The notes below the pieces were generated by a model. That model ran no database searches. It had not been told where the DNA came from and was given only the letters and a program-made list of their open reading frames with translations. Positions 6,812-25,105 of a DNA stretch of 33,822 nucleotides are shown one piece after another. The DNA is from Desulfotomaculaceae bacterium (GTDB taxonomy: Bacteria; Bacillota; Desulfotomaculia; Desulfotomaculales; Pelotomaculaceae): contig JAQVGZ010000020.1 in the NCBI GenBank assembly GCA_028696455.1, forward strand, positions 1 through 33,822, read 5' to 3'. Numbering within the stretch: the first letter of the stretch is position 1; each line of letters opens with the position of its first letter. The translations under genes were made by a program, and so were the position numbers.

Positions 6812-6922
6812 ATGTTAGATATTTATTATACAGTTTTTCTGTTAAGCATCAATAATCAAAAGAAACGAAATGTAAGATACTGAATGATATATTACCATTT
6901 GTACGGAAACGAGGATTTGGAT

Positions 6923-7486
6923 ATGGATAGACGAATACAAAAAACGAGGGAATCAATCTTCAGAGCTTTCAGCACACTTTTATCGCAAAAGGGATATTCT
7001 AAAATCACAGTGCAGGAAATCATTGATGAAGCTAATATTGGCCGCAGCACCTTTTATTCCCACTTTGAAACAAAAGATGATTTATTGAAGGCATTATGCA
7101 GCGATATATTTGACCACGTATTCTATGAAGATCTGATTTCTGAGTGTACTCATGATTTTTCCTCTGCTAATAACGGCCTGGAGTCAAAAATCACGCATAT
7201 TTTATATCACTTAAAAGATAGTAAAAGGGATATGAAAGGAATTCTCACGTGTGAAAGTGGGGAGTTGTTTTTAAGCGTTATTAAAACCTATTTGGAAAAG
7301 TTGTTTACTGGAATTATCACAAACGATAGTTTGGATGGAATCCCTAAAGAGTATGTTGTTAATCATATGGCTGGTAGTTTTGTTGAAACCGTAAAATGGT
7401 GGATGCAAAATGATATGGCACAGTTACCGGAAGAATTGACCAGGTATTTTTTAAGTGTTATTTCACCGAATATATCATTAAAATGA
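6923..7486 (+). CDS. TetR/AcrR-family transcriptional regulator
   Basis: About 187 residues. The N-terminal HTH covers residues 1-50: TRESIFRAFSTLL, GYSKITVQEIIDEANIGRST and FYSHFETKDDLL, the standard TetR pattern. The C-terminal half is a TetR ligand/dimer domain with WWMQNDM-type helices. ATG 6923 follows GAGG by 8 nt and gives MDRRIQKTR, the usual family beginning; an upstream ATG at 6884 has no ribosome site. It is transcribed away from the P1B ATPase, so control of that pump is the simplest role. The inducer may be a metal or an organic compound. Confidence 0.88.
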   Translation: MDRRIQKTRESIFRAFSTLLSQKGYSKITVQEIIDEANIGRSTFYSHFETKDDLLKALCSDIFDHVFYEDLISECTHDFSSANNGLESKITHILYHLKDSKRDMKGILTCESGELFLSVIKTYLEKLFTGIITNDSLDGIPKEYVVNHMAGSFVETVKWWMQNDMAQLPEELTRYFLSVISPNISLK

Positions 7487-8152: not shown

Positions 8153-8869
8153 ATGAGTCAAGGGTATAGGAATGGAAGTGATAATCAGGTAAAAAAGTCA
8201 GGTGTTGTGTATATCATAAGGATTCATGCACAGCTATTGATCTTGGCGTTTGCATATTTTATCGCGGCAGGAAGTCTCAATATAGGGAGAGCCTGGCTTT
8301 ATTTCGGTATTGCGGCAGTTACATACTTTGTAAGTTCATTGATATTTATAAAATACAATCCCGGGCTTATTAATGAAAGGGCTAAGGAAAGGGAAAACAC
8401 CAAGTCATGGGATAAGGCGCTATTAAGCTTATACTTGTTGATCGGTTTTCTCGGAACACATATTGTTGCCGGATTGGATAGCAGATTTGAATGGTCGAGC
8501 CTGGACATGATTTATATGATACCTGGGGCGGTTTTATATATAGTCGCTACACTCATTCAAATAATATCAATGCTGGCGAATAAATACTTTGAAGCAACGG
8601 TAAGGATACAAAGCGACAGGGAGCAACAGGTGGTAAAAGACGGTCCTTACAAAATTGTCAGGCATCCGGGTTATGCTTCGGTTTTATTAAGCTTTGTTGC
8701 AATTCCGTTCATGATAGGTTCTCTTTATGCCTTAATCTGCACGGCTGCTGTCTTTATCATTATGTTCACCCGTACTGCATTGGAAGATAAAATGCTGCAA
8801 AAGGAATTACCGGGATACTCTCAATATGCCAAGGAAGTGAAATTCAGACTTATACCTGGTATATGGTAA
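8153..8869 (+). CDS. ICMT/PEMT-like membrane methyltransferase
   Basis: A 238-residue protein with four to five membrane helices. Its C-terminal half has the isoprenylcysteine-methyltransferase/phospholipid-methyltransferase signature: DGPYKIVRHPGYASVLL, then RTALEDKMLQKELPGYSQYA, then VKFRLIPGIW. These residues bind S-adenosylmethionine at the membrane face. Bacterial members methylate unknown lipids or small molecules, and the substrate cannot be told from sequence. ATG 8153 with GGAAGGAG 8-9 nt upstream is used; a longer frame from 8117 lacks such a site. It follows a truncated TetR gene, which may once have controlled it. Confidence 0.85.
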   Translation: MSQGYRNGSDNQVKKSGVVYIIRIHAQLLILAFAYFIAAGSLNIGRAWLYFGIAAVTYFVSSLIFIKYNPGLINERAKERENTKSWDKALLSLYLLIGFLGTHIVAGLDSRFEWSSLDMIYMIPGAVLYIVATLIQIISMLANKYFEATVRIQSDREQQVVKDGPYKIVRHPGYASVLLSFVAIPFMIGSLYALICTAAVFIIMFTRTALEDKMLQKELPGYSQYAKEVKFRLIPGIW

Positions 8870-9765: not shown

Positions 9766-9772
9766 AATAGAA

Positions 9773-9893
9773 AAAGGCCGAAACCCTGGATAACCCGGGG
9801 AACGGGGGACAAGTTTTTTTGGGGTGAATCGATGCTAAATCGTAGGGTGCCCTCAACCCGAACCCGTCAACTAACCTCGGAGGCCGGAGGGGG
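9773..9893 (+). ncRNA. ydaO/yuaA-type riboswitch (cyclic di-AMP)
   Basis: The conserved blocks of the ydaO-yuaA class are present in order: GGCCGAAACC, then GGGGAACGGGGGACAA, TTGGGGTGAATCGAT, ATCGTAGGGTG, CGAACCCGTCAACTAACCTC and GGAGGCC. This RNA binds two c-di-AMP molecules and normally switches expression off. It is followed at once by a secreted LysM/SleB cell-wall hydrolase, one of the classical gene types under this riboswitch. No separate terminator hairpin lies between aptamer and start codon, and the ribosome site GGAGGGGGG at 9886-9894 adjoins the closing stem. Control at translation is therefore possible. Confidence 0.93.
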
Positions 9894-9899
9894 GATTCA

Positions 9900-10697
9900 A
9901 TGTCTCTGGTTACCCGTGTGTTCCTGAGCTTTTTTGTTTTTGTATGCGCATTAATTGCGCCTCTTGCAGCGCATGCGGCTACCCACAATGTTTCGCCGGG
10001 GGAAAGTCTCTTCACAATTAGCCGCAACTACGGTATTTCACTGAATTCACTGATGGAGGCAAATGGCATTTGGGATTCTATGATCTACCCCGGGCAACAA
10101 CTTTACATCCCCCAAAATGGCGCCAGTGGTGGTTCGTCCTATACCGTCCGGGCAGGGGACAGCCTTTTTCTAATTGGCCAAAAATTCGGGGTTAGCTACC
10201 AGGAGATTATGTCGGCAAACGGTCTGCAAAGTTCTTACATTTACCCCGGCATGTCTTTGTATATCCCCACCACCACACCCGGCACAACAGCCCAACCGCC
10301 TGCACAAGTAAGTAGAGGTGGTTTCCAGAGGCCTACGCTTGCTGACGTGGATATCCTGGCAAGATTAATTACTGCTGAGGCTGAAGGAGAGCCTTATGAA
10401 GGCAAAGTCGCTGTTGGGGCTGTGGTTTTAAACCGGATTGACAGCCCGGAATTCCCTAATTCTATCCCGGAAGTAATCTATCAATATGAGAAAGGGATTT
10501 ATCAATTTGAGCCGGTGATGAATGGATGGATTAACCGTGCGGCCAGCCCGGAATCGGTGAAAGCGGCCAAGGAAGCCCTGGGCGGTAAAGACCCCACGAA
10601 TGGCGCGATTTATTTTTTTGCCACATATGTTAAAAATTCGTGGCTTTGGTCCAGACCTTTGAGCCGGATCATCGGCAATCATGTTTTTACGTACTAA
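9900..10697 (+). CDS. Secreted cell-wall hydrolase with two LysM domains and a SleB-type catalytic domain
   Basis: 265 residues. A signal peptide covers about 1-26 (ending AAHA), LysM repeats cover about 28-72 and 80-124 (each ending LYIP), a Thr/Pro/Gln-rich linker covers 125-140, and a Hydrolase_2/SleB domain runs from about 145 to the end (ILARLITAEAEGEPYEGK, VAVGAVVLNRI, with the catalytic Glu in the TAEAEGE segment). SleB-type enzymes are lytic transglycosylases acting on peptidoglycan; relatives open the spore cortex during germination. The gene is preceded by a c-di-AMP riboswitch, linking wall turnover to that second messenger. The exact physiological role, germination or vegetative wall growth, is not settled by sequence. 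Confidence 0.93.
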   Translation: MSLVTRVFLSFFVFVCALIAPLAAHAATHNVSPGESLFTISRNYGISLNSLMEANGIWDSMIYPGQQLYIPQNGASGGSSYTVRAGDSLFLIGQKFGVSYQEIMSANGLQSSYIYPGMSLYIPTTTPGTTAQPPAQVSRGGFQRPTLADVDILARLITAEAEGEPYEGKVAVGAVVLNRIDSPEFPNSIPEVIYQYEKGIYQFEPVMNGWINRAASPESVKAAKEALGGKDPTNGAIYFFATYVKNSWLWSRPLSRIIGNHVFTY

Positions 10698-18149: not shown

Positions 18150-18213
18150 GGTAAAGAAACCTATATTTATTTGTTCACGGGAATATTCCTTTTAGTAAAA
18201 AATTTAAAAAAAT

Positions 18214-18260
18214 ATGTTACAATAAGGATTGACATGGAGCAACTTGACAAATTGTAACAT
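18214..18260. promoter_or_regulatory. Perfect 10-bp inverted repeat upstream of the ArsB-like gene
   Basis: ATGTTACAAT (18214-18223) and ATTGTAACAT (18251-18260) form a perfect inverted repeat 27 bp apart. The space between holds two TTGACA words (18229-18234 and 18244-18249), which could be -35 boxes for rightward transcription. It looks like a regulated promoter region, but no regulator gene is adjacent. Confidence 0.5.
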
Positions 18261-18294
18261 TTTATCAATAGTGTATATCTTATGCTAATGAATA

Positions 18295-18412
18295 GTGGAG
18301 GCTGACAAATTTCTCTTTATGTGGGTTTAAAGAGGGAGCTTTTCTAAATAAGTAAGGACCTTGCAGTGATGACTCGGAAATGCCATTTTAAAAGCCTCGC
18401 ATTTCGCAATGG
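18295..18412 (+). other. Possible structured RNA downstream of the inverted repeat
   Basis: No coding frame. GGAGGCT (18297-18303) is complementary to AGCCTC about 100 nt later (near 18400), which would close a domain of RNA length. Inside are short self-complementary pieces such as GAAATGCC/GGCATTTC-like segments. It matches no RNA family I can name, and could equally be ordinary spacer. Confidence 0.2.
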
Positions 18413-21393: not shown

Positions 21394-21433
21394 AAAAAGG
21401 AACCTTCCTCAATAAAGAGGAAGGTTCCTTTTT
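21394..21433 (+). terminator. Strong intrinsic terminator behind the esterase gene
   Basis: The arms at 21394-21410 and 21417-21433 form a perfect 17-bp stem (AAAAAGGAACCTTCCTC and its complement) with a 6-nt AATAAA loop, ending in TTTTT. The A-rich left side lets it work on both strands. Confidence 0.95.
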
Positions 21434-21441
21434 AAAAAGCC

Positions 21442-21845
21442 CGTAATGACTTTCACTACAGCTATTACGAATATCTACGCAACTTATGACAATCTTTCGA
21501 CTGTCATAAACCATTACGACACCCGTAATAACCTTTGCTCGACTATTAAGGATACCTTAAAAGCCCATAACAATCTCGCGACCATTATAAACCTCTTAAT
21601 CAAAATACTACGAGTATTTAAATTATATCGGCACCCATAATAGTCTTAGCTCGACTGATAAATATCCTTTGTGACCTGATAATAATCCAAATCGACTATT
21701 ATCAAGCCTGCCAGAACACTTATCAATCTGCCCGCCGGCTAATATTGAGCCTTTCGACCCAACATTAACCTTTGGCCGACTATTACAGAGCCCTGGGACC
21801 CTGTAATAATCTTGGCTCGGCCATTACGAACCCTTGTGATTGTAG
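21442..21845. repeat. Array of about ten degenerate 41/42-bp tandem repeats, each with a dyad
   Basis: A word of the form TAATAATCTTnGCTCGACTATTA recurs with anchors at about 21444, 21485, 21526, 21568, 21638, 21680, 21721, 21763 and 21804. The steps are 41 or 42 bp, except for 70 bp across one degenerate copy near 21600. Many units contain a dyad: TTATGAC/GTCATAA (21484-21490 / 21503-21509), AAATACT/AGTATTT (21603-21609 / 21613-21619), GATAATA/TATTATC in the 21678 unit. The rest of each unit is variable (ends often in GACCC). The alternating 41/42 step breaks any reading frame, so coding is unlikely. The period equals four helical turns. No known repeat family is recognised. Confidence 0.8.
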
Positions 21846-22084
21846 TATGTTCATCAAGACAGAAATGATACCAGGTATAATATGGTAGAATTCCCCTGTT
21901 TATTTGCATAGTTTTATAATCGTTTTTACTTAACTAATGCGCACTTCAGTATTATTTTTAATAAGTATCCGGTAAACCAGTTACACATATAGTATAATTA
22001 ATAAACTAAGGTGCAATTTCTTATATACAGTGAATGTACAAGTAGATTAAAAAAGAAATTATACGTTAGAGGGGGAAGACACTA

Positions 22085-22957: not shown

Positions 22958-24820
22958 CTAGACAGTAAATCTGACATAAAACGTTGTCCCACTGAAATTT
23001 GTCTCAATATCGATTCGGGCATTATGCCTGTGGGCAATACTGTGACAGGTGGCCAGCCCAAGCCCGGTGCCACCATCTTTGGTGGTAAAGAAAGGAAGGC
23101 CTACTTTATCCAGGAATTCCGAAGCAATCCCCTGTCCCTGGTCTTGTACAGCCAGGACTACCTCACCGTCATCCTGATAAGTCCTGATCGTCAGCAGACC
23201 ACCGGGTGACATGGCCTCAATACCATTACGGGCCAGGTTCAGAAGCAGTTGGTGAATTTCGTTTTTGTCAATAAGCAGGTCTGGTATTTCACCTAGTTCC
23301 AGGTTAATAGATATGTCATGTTTTGCCGCACCAGCACTAAGTAAAGGATGGAGACTCTCAATCCGGGCATTTAAATTCTGCAGTTTTCTTTTTTCTGCCT
23401 GCTTTCTGGCCAGTGAAAGATACTCTGTAATAATCGCGTTAGCCCGATCTAGCTCTTCAATCATTAAATCTAAATATCCCTGTTCTTGAGCATACTTCTC
23501 CTTTCCTTTAAGAAGTTGCAGGAAACCTCTGACGGTAGTCATGGGGTTCCTAATTTCATGGCCGATACCGGCCGCCATTTCTCCTACCAGGTGCAACCGC
23601 TCTAAGTGAGCAGTTCTCATCTGGTAGCTTCTTAATTCTGTAATGTCATTAGCAATGCCAAGAACACATTCCTGATTAGTAAAAGTTATGATCACCGCTG
23701 ACAATAAAACTGTGCATATTTCACCTGACTTTTTACGTACCTTTGCTTCATGATTTTTGATAATAGTTTTTTTCATAAGCGGTTCTCTAAAACTGTCACG
23801 GTCAGCTAATTCCACCCAAAGGCTGGTATCATGTATACTGAATCCAATCAGCTCTTCCCTGAAATAGCCGCTCGTTTTAAGAAGGGCTTCATTAACATCC
23901 ATAAACGTACCATCATTAGTTGTTAATATAGCCATTGGAAGCGGATTAGCATGAAAAATTTTTGAGAATAGCTCTTCAGATAAACGCAAAGTCTCCTCTG
24001 CCTTCTTACGTGCGGTGATGTCCCGGACAATCATGCTTGATAATTCGCGGCCGTCTTTATCCTTAAACAGATTGGAAGTAATTTCGCCAGGAAACTTTGT
24101 TCCATCTTTATGTACCAGGATCATTTCCGTATTAAAACTTCCCGTCTTTTCTCTTTCATTTATAGCTCTCATAACCCTTGGGTCACCCAAATCTACGATA
24201 CCATTCATGCCAGCAGCACATATTTCCTCTTTCGTTCGGCCAAACATCCGGCAGGCCGCCGGGTTAGCTGATAGTATTCTATTGCCTGGAGTAGTCAGTA
24301 GAATTCCATCCTGGCTGTTCTCAAAAATAGAGCGAAAACATTCTTTACTTACACGTAGTTTATCTTTATCTCTGACATGTTCGGTAACATCACTAAGAGT
24401 GAGAATTAATAAATAGACCTCACCAGACAAGTCAAGAACTGGGACAAGTGTCCAATCCCAATAAGTCACCCCCCACTCATGATGACCAGGAAAGATGAAA
24501 GGTCCGGCTAAAACCTGATAAATTTCTTTTGTCCTGACTACGTGATCAAAGATATCTTTAGTATGGGAAGGATAGAATTCAAAGTGGTTATGACCAGTAA
24601 AATCAGAGACCTTACGGAAGCATGCTTTAGCATATGCTTCGTTAACACGGATGTAATTATAATCCTTATCCATAATAACTACTAAAGGAACTGTTTGTTT
24701 AAAAAAAGCTTCCAAAATCTCTTCGGATTTTTTCCTTTTTTCGATTTCCTCTTTAAGTCTACTATTTTCTTCAACAAGCTCCTTAAGGTATAAATCCTGA
24801 TCTGTTTTTGAGTAGGCCAA
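22958..24820 (-). CDS. Sensor histidine kinase with three PAS domains, soluble
   Basis: About 620 residues. A short coiled coil (LVEENSRLKEEIEKRKKSEE) is followed by three PAS domains, the HisKA dimerisation helix with GHEIRNPMTTVRGFLQLL (His box), and an ATPase domain with NLARNGIEAM (N box), DQGQGI (G1) and GGTGLGLATC (G2). No transmembrane segments are visible, so it senses a cytoplasmic signal. This layout resembles sporulation kinases that feed Spo0F, but the partner is not encoded here: no response regulator is adjacent. TTG 24820 is preferred as start because GGGGGAAG lies 7 nt upstream; a frame back to ATG 24955 is open but AT-rich and lacks a ribosome site. Confidence 0.9.
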   Translation of the reverse strand: MAYSKTDQDLYLKELVEENSRLKEEIEKRKKSEEILEAFFKQTVPLVVIMDKDYNYIRVNEAYAKACFRKVSDFTGHNHFEFYPSHTKDIFDHVVRTKEIYQVLAGPFIFPGHHEWGVTYWDWTLVPVLDLSGEVYLLILTLSDVTEHVRDKDKLRVSKECFRSIFENSQDGILLTTPGNRILSANPAACRMFGRTKEEICAAGMNGIVDLGDPRVMRAINEREKTGSFNTEMILVHKDGTKFPGEITSNLFKDKDGRELSSMIVRDITARKKAEETLRLSEELFSKIFHANPLPMAILTTNDGTFMDVNEALLKTSGYFREELIGFSIHDTSLWVELADRDSFREPLMKKTIIKNHEAKVRKKSGEICTVLLSAVIITFTNQECVLGIANDITELRSYQMRTAHLERLHLVGEMAAGIGHEIRNPMTTVRGFLQLLKGKEKYAQEQGYLDLMIEELDRANAIITEYLSLARKQAEKRKLQNLNARIESLHPLLSAGAAKHDISINLELGEIPDLLIDKNEIHQLLLNLARNGIEAMSPGGLLTIRTYQDDGEVVLAVQDQGQGIASEFLDKVGLPFFTTKDGGTGLGLATCHSIAHRHNARIDIETNFSGTTFYVRFTV

Positions 24821-25105
24821 ATGTACTCTTCCCCCAATCCAGAAAAGTCTAATGTATTTATTTAACAAAAGTTTATTTTCCCCTTCTGGGATTATGACAT
24901 TTTTTGTAGAATTCAAAATATTTGTTTTAATTGCAAAAAAACTAAAACGCACCATATTAATAGGGTACTAGCACCTTCATTGTTTTCCCGCTCTTCTAAA
25001 GTTTCAATAGATAAAAAAAAATGTCCGTTGTTAAAAAATTTTAAAATTTTTTAATTGACTATCTAGCAATTTATGATAACATATAAAAAGAAACCCATAT
25101 TGCGA

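Follow-up and report, generated by a model that had tools for sequence, protein, structure and literature searches.

A phylum-wide structured RNA gene with a probable forespore promoter accounts for a 41-nt periodicity in a Desulfotomaculaceae genome

Introduction

What kind of element gives an intergenic stretch of bacterial DNA a loose period of four helical turns and a series of dyads? The question is raised by a contig of a Desulfotomaculaceae bacterium, of which 33,822 nucleotides (hereafter the window) were analysed. An earlier note, made from the letters alone, had described an array of 41- or 42-bp units at 21442–21845, with a dyad in many of them, between an esterase and an FMN-reductase gene, and had favoured a row of protein-binding DNA sites on one helix face or, failing that, a row of small RNA hairpins. 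The two flanking genes were confirmed as such (PF00135 and PF03358, respectively); a multi-PAS sensor histidine kinase gene (22958–24955), convergent with the FMN-reductase gene, also adjoins the locus. Here we show that the region holds the gene of a large structured RNA, and we weigh its probable expression and role. The matter is of interest because endospore formation is a process in which roles have been assigned to few structured RNAs.

Results

The periodicity is not that of a tandem array

Autocorrelation of 21437–21860 revealed a peak at lag 41 (z 4.6), equalled in none of 2,000 dinucleotide shuffles, together with a signal at lag 21 (z 4.0) and a weak one at lag 42 (z 2.4), and a sliding scan (350 nt, lags 20–129) ranked this region as the strongest signal in the window. 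Tandem Repeats Finder reported no array there even at score 30, and the gap-free repeat families of the region had only two to four members. The 41-nt units are thus not true tandem repeats; the period of 41 announced in the earlier note stands, whereas that of 42 is weak and tandem copies are absent. Identical direct repeats with unique spacers, the mark of a CRISPR array, were likewise not found at the locus, and homology over the full length is conserved across families, in agreement with the previous rejection of a CRISPR. The periodicity is instead the footprint of an RNA gene whose helices nearly all measure 15–16 bp; the period is loose in the DNA because these helices are near-equal in length and have similar conserved ends.

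Homologues delimit a probable stand-alone RNA gene

The region recurs widely among relatives: BLAST searches with 21436–21860 gave matches in 47 of 60 related genomes, mostly full length, with ~68–89% identity and in many families of the order. Alignment of 55 copies revealed a common core of ~400 nt. A strong terminator hairpin marks its low-coordinate end, and its high-coordinate end has a conserved box resembling TAGTATG, which on the minus strand reads as the −10-like CATACTA. On this comparison, positions 21394–21837 (minus strand) are a structured non-coding RNA gene of ~445 nt, probably stand-alone, with its own predicted promoter and terminator, the ends of the RNA (5′ at ~21837, 3′ at ~21394) being inferred from these two elements. 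The predicted rho-independent terminator (21394–21433, minus strand; inverted repeat I1) consists of a 17-bp perfect stem and a U-run at 21398–21394, and an equivalent hairpin lies 3′ of the RNA in the aligned copies. The interval originally proposed covers the body of the RNA; the terminator and the leftward-reading promoter (21843–21871) also belong to the element.

Several features suggest an independent transcription unit. The copies have a conserved promoter-like box as well as the terminator, and no one neighbourhood is kept: ileS–lspA, rarA–iscS and recJ–spoIVA are the most frequent settings, the adjacent genes vary widely in kind and orientation, and the commonest gene family within four genes of the RNA occurs in only 10 loci. 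The terminator in the copies and the unconserved neighbours indicate by comparison that the RNA gene stands alone. An element that regulates an adjacent gene in cis, as a leader or riboswitch, would also be intergenic and structured, and many riboswitches exist in the same genomes, but such an element is very improbable here: the RNA ends in its own terminator, it has no fixed position 5′ of functionally related genes, and its direction in the window leads away from the FMN-reductase gene and toward the end of the esterase gene, which is convergent with it.

A closed five-armed fold maintained by compensatory changes

RNAalifold applied to 53 copies yielded a closed branched fold. The consensus structure was built on an alignment of 32 full-length sequences spanning the phylum (hereafter A2) and comprises 150 pairs in 12 helices. 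Standard pairs fill 96.7% of the 4,797 pair cells of A2, versus 81.2% after shuffling, and 114 of the 150 pairs have changed on both sides with pairing kept, as the earlier note had suggested checking. The covariation score is 0.585, compared with 0.256 for shuffled alignments and at most 0.139 with the partners slid. The window RNA alone folds to nearly the same structure (−184.9 kcal/mol, z −16), whereas for its opposite strand the value is only −78 kcal/mol, and all 32 homologues have their more stable fold on the minus strand. Furthermore, G–U wobbles make up 23% of the helix cells and 14 pairs are G–U in at least 90% of the homologues. This content of wobbles, together with the uniform bias in stability, identifies the minus strand as the functional one. 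By its length above 200 nt and a structure kept by compensatory changes, the element resembles the large structured non-coding RNAs, and its maintenance across a phylum makes an important role almost certain.

Two other readings of the locus can be judged on the same data. Dimeric protein-binding sites in DNA, spaced by four helical turns, would explain the 41-bp spacing and the dyads, both of which exist; each dyad is in fact one RNA helix, and the fixed G–U positions contradict such an array, as pairs of this kind are complementary neither in DNA nor on the opposite strand. The middles of the helices vary freely while pairing is kept, where binding sites would keep their sequence instead, and the outermost helix, P1, joins ends ~370–400 nt apart, so that the idea preferred in the earlier note now has a negligible probability. 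Its second suggestion came closer: the elements are RNA helices, although they form one closed branched minus-strand fold of 150 bp and not a row of independent hairpins. We give equally little credence to a gene, live or decayed, whose protein would be made of 14-residue repeats. A 64-codon open frame lies at 21446–21640 and some stretches resemble such repeats, but over a 386-nt core the per-frame medians of the longest open stretch are 48–61 aa, no frame is conserved open among the six, open stretches of at least 115 aa occur in only 3 of 53 copies, and base pairs are conserved, not codons; the region had already been called non-coding, which holds.

As shown by comparison, the RNA is a closed structure with five arms (P2, P3, P4/P4a, P5/P5a and P6/P6a) in which P1 pairs the two ends; all coordinates below refer to the minus strand. 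The 5′ strand of P1 (21819–21834) forms 16 bp with the 3′ strand (21436–21451), with 98.4% of cells paired and both-sided changes in 10 of the 16 pairs. Two simple hairpins follow, P2 (21778–21811; 16 bp, 97.5% paired, 13 pairs changed on both sides) and P3 (21737–21770; 15 bp, 98.5% paired, 12 pairs). The remaining arms are compound: P4 (21653–21728; 16 bp, 14 pairs changed on both sides) is capped across an internal loop by the hairpin P4a (21673–21708; 15 bp, 12 pairs), P5 (21537–21650; 19 bp, 14 pairs) is accompanied by the hairpin P5a (21560–21595; 16 bp, 13 pairs) and an insert at ~21596–21629 whose length varies in A2, and P6 (21460–21533; 16 bp, 13 pairs) contains the hairpin P6a (21480–21513; 15 bp, 11 pairs).

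The arms are built from recurring parts. In every hairpin rod a conserved base of the GAYU/RGUC type is followed by a freely covarying middle of ~6 bp, and a cassette in which 5′-GGGUC-3′ faces 5′-GGYUC-3′ (or a close variant), so that two fixed wobbles flank one Watson–Crick pair, occurs in six helices (P1, P2, P3, P4a, P5a and P6a). A CGAGC–AAAG motif marks four helix entries (21819, 21778, 21653 and 21541), its copies being CGAGCCAAG (21811–21819, near-invariant in A2), CGGCCAAAG (21770–21778), CGAGCTAAG (21645–21653) and CGAGCAAAG (21533–21541). A covariance model of the P2–P3 domain at the 5′ end (R1), in which 25 of 37 pairs have changed on both sides, also gives weaker matches in the interior of many copies, downstream of this domain, a pattern suggesting that internal duplication gave rise to part of the RNA.

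A probable forespore promoter

The gene is preceded by a predicted −10-like element, CATACTA (21843–21849, minus strand), of the type used by the forespore factors sigma-F and sigma-G, and 16 nt 5′ of it by a −35-like element, GTATCA (21866–21871, minus strand), to which corresponds, in the homologues, a HATA/ATATT-type element ~17 nt 5′ of the −10. Across 83 copies the pattern is HATA/ATATT, ~17 nt and CATAMTA, usually with GGN before the last, and −10 positions 2, 6 and 7 are A, T and A in at least 95% of them. In a mismatch scan against shuffled sequence, using B. subtilis consensus strings, sigma-G and sigma-F fitted best (z 15.7 and 14.3), followed by sigma-E (5.3), sigma-A (3.2) and sigma-K (−0.9). 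The same scan also ranked sigma-G and sigma-F first for the promoters of small acid-soluble protein (SASP) genes of the same genomes; a SASP gene of the window's own genome carries GCATAA-N17-CATACTA, and GGNAATACTA boxes are present at spoIIR, itself of the sigma-F type, in several relatives.

It is thus probable that RNA polymerase with sigma-F, sigma-G or both transcribes the gene in the forespore. This is not proven, since the specificities of the two factors overlap (PMC7438776) and a matrix trained on SASP promoters does not separate the RNA promoters from the sigma-A-driven ones of 6S RNA, which score nearly as high (8.0 versus 8.6); the assignment therefore rests on comparing the sigma consensuses. 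The spoIVA promoters, taken as a yardstick for sigma-E, were uninformative. Expression of the same structured RNA by sigma-A, or in the mother cell by sigma-E or sigma-K, with a general role instead of one in the forespore, is unlikely. In its favour, some copies have a −10 close to TATAAT (TATAATA, TATACTA), and the specificity of the SASP matrix is limited. Against it, there is no TTGACA-like −35, sigma-A lies barely above shuffled sequence and sigma-K does not fit while sigma-G and sigma-F reach z 14–16, and spoIVA is present in nearly all genomes with the RNA.

Distribution of the RNA and its tie to spore formers

A consensus search found the RNA in 80 of 113 genomes of the class and order and in 94 of 398 in a sample of the phylum. 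R1 reached further: within the order it matched 83 of 113 genomes (65 of 80 of high quality; 45 of 55 genera), and within the phylum sample 142 of 398 (105 of 267 genera), at one to five matches per genome. No phage or plasmid copies were detected by blastn, and an origin from either was rejected on this ground. A pattern scan of genome contigs, run with one wrong gap in the pattern, returned one real copy in a Desulforudis sp. metagenome-assembled genome (MAG; L069), and a match in an Acidimicrobiales MAG (L068) that lies inside a coding region and was judged chance.

Among the 398 genomes searched, spoIVA was present in 139 of 142 with the RNA, compared with 197 of 256 without it (Fisher P=1.7 × 10−9, shared ancestry ignored), and two of the three RNA-positive genomes lacking a detected spoIVA are only 61% and 75% complete. 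Given the 197 spoIVA-positive genomes in which the RNA was not detected, it is not a general requirement for sporulation. Inside the order, SASP genes and sigG-family matches occur in every one of the 60 relatives searched, which leaves no contrast to draw. Taken together, promoter and distribution tie the RNA to endospore formation, a link that is well supported. The family model now offers a means of locating the RNA in cultured spore formers.

Comparison with known RNAs

No Rfam 15 family was matched at the gathering threshold, either at the window locus or in distant members, and permissive searches gave only weak, scattered matches or none at the RNA; those to PyrR (E 0.02) and to microRNA-like families were well below their cut-offs and were judged chance. 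The RNA thus corresponds to no known family in Rfam 15. We found no prior description in the open literature, and an earlier one may exist beyond the open papers, as most subscription journals lay outside the search.

CsfG of B. subtilis is under sigma-F/sigma-G control. It shares with the present RNA, for which consensus scans favour a sigma-F/sigma-G-type promoter, a link to sporulation: CsfG (the ylbH-associated element) is a non-coding RNA specific to sporulation and conserved among endospore formers (Marchais et al. 2011, as cited in PMC3574147 and PMC12456014). In contrast to CsfG, which has 136 nt with CU-rich conserved loops and associates with Hfq (PMC3574147), the present RNA measures ~445 nt, has a closed five-armed fold and another sequence, and its consensus is without conserved CU-rich loops. 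OLE, GOLLD and ROOL, large and highly structured bacterial non-coding RNAs whose functions are unknown or partly known (PMC12286853), and raiA (ModT RNA), a structured non-coding RNA of Bacillota whose disruption affects sporulation (as summarised in PMC11706538 and, for Soares et al. 2024, in PMC12286853), are analogues in kind only. Their Rfam models are unmatched; unlike the first three, the present RNA consists of near-identical 15–16-bp rods and is associated with spore formers, with no phage or plasmid copies found, and the architecture of raiA is unlike it.

6S RNA (RF00013) is likewise a stand-alone structured RNA, and both RNAs adjoin rarA in six loci of one family, where identity of the two was suspected. 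It was ruled out: in these loci 6S RNA has a gene of its own, a few kilobases off, and is less than half as long as the present RNA, which has no match to RF00013. The CsrB/RsmZ sponges resemble the RNA in repeating identical hairpin motifs within one molecule, which suggests protein titration, but what is repeated here are double-wobble helix cassettes and CGAGC–AAAG junctions, and not loop GGA; repeated GGA in hairpin loops is absent from A2.

A proposed role as scaffold or sponge

We consider it fairly likely that RNA polymerase carrying sigma-F, sigma-G or both makes the ~445-nt minus-strand RNA in the forespore, and that the RNA acts as a modular scaffold or sponge. Its six wobble cassettes and four junction motifs would be identical docking sites by which, in the developing spore, it may gather several copies of one protein or assemble with itself, rather than serving as an antisense regulator, a riboswitch or an mRNA. 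We infer this role from the repeated cassettes and junctions, and no conserved protein partner was found; a design of six equal cassettes and four equal junctions does predict a repeated binding partner. The broader proposal, that the RNA represents an undescribed class of architectural forespore RNAs, ancient in the endospore-forming phylum, whose six identical double-wobble rods dock one protein or one another, has in our judgement an even chance of being right. If it is right, the RNA would rank, translation aside, among the largest that are linked to spore development.

A particle made of RNA only, without a protein partner, is a doubtful variant, drawn by analogy with GOLLD and ROOL, which have been shown to self-assemble in this way (PMC12286853). 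Rods of uniform build whose conserved tips and junctions recur would lend themselves to homo-oligomeric contacts, and large ornate RNAs of unrelated sequence do form such complexes (PMC12286853), but the hairpin loops in A2 are not strongly conserved, unlike the kissing loops that would be expected.

Locus history and variant copies

The genome of the window has, in addition to its full-length copy, a shrunken remnant between ileS and lspA (G000:C68), an answer to the earlier suggestion that other loci be checked, and several family members have a full-length RNA at this site. The remnant, its full-length relatives and the unconserved neighbours indicate that the RNA gene appears to have been duplicated, moved and lost over time. 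The remnant itself (L212:788–1000; G000:C68 ~18187–18400) keeps the terminator and both P1 arms, with ~14 of 15 pairs, around a strongly reduced interior, and a similar terminator-end remnant exists in a congener (L215).

Other variants were seen among the copies. Near-tandem duplicates occur in L010 (two copies ~2 kb apart) and at G076:C8:40691–41593. A congener in which no full-length copy was found has an internally deleted copy of ~150 nt with the end regions only (L065:308–460). In relatives, the terminator stem and the adjoining 3′ arm of P1 (CATTACGGGCTCTT...GAAACCTTCCTC) stand by themselves at L213:575–624 and L214:532–591, and may be either decayed copies or a separate small element. 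An 8.4-kb stretch with a copy of the RNA (L013) also has two molybdenum cofactor riboswitches (6864–6981 and 8162–8282) and a TPP riboswitch, and the window itself has a c-di-AMP (ydaO) riboswitch at 9766–9898, directly 5′ of a LysM/cell-wall hydrolase gene (9900–10697).
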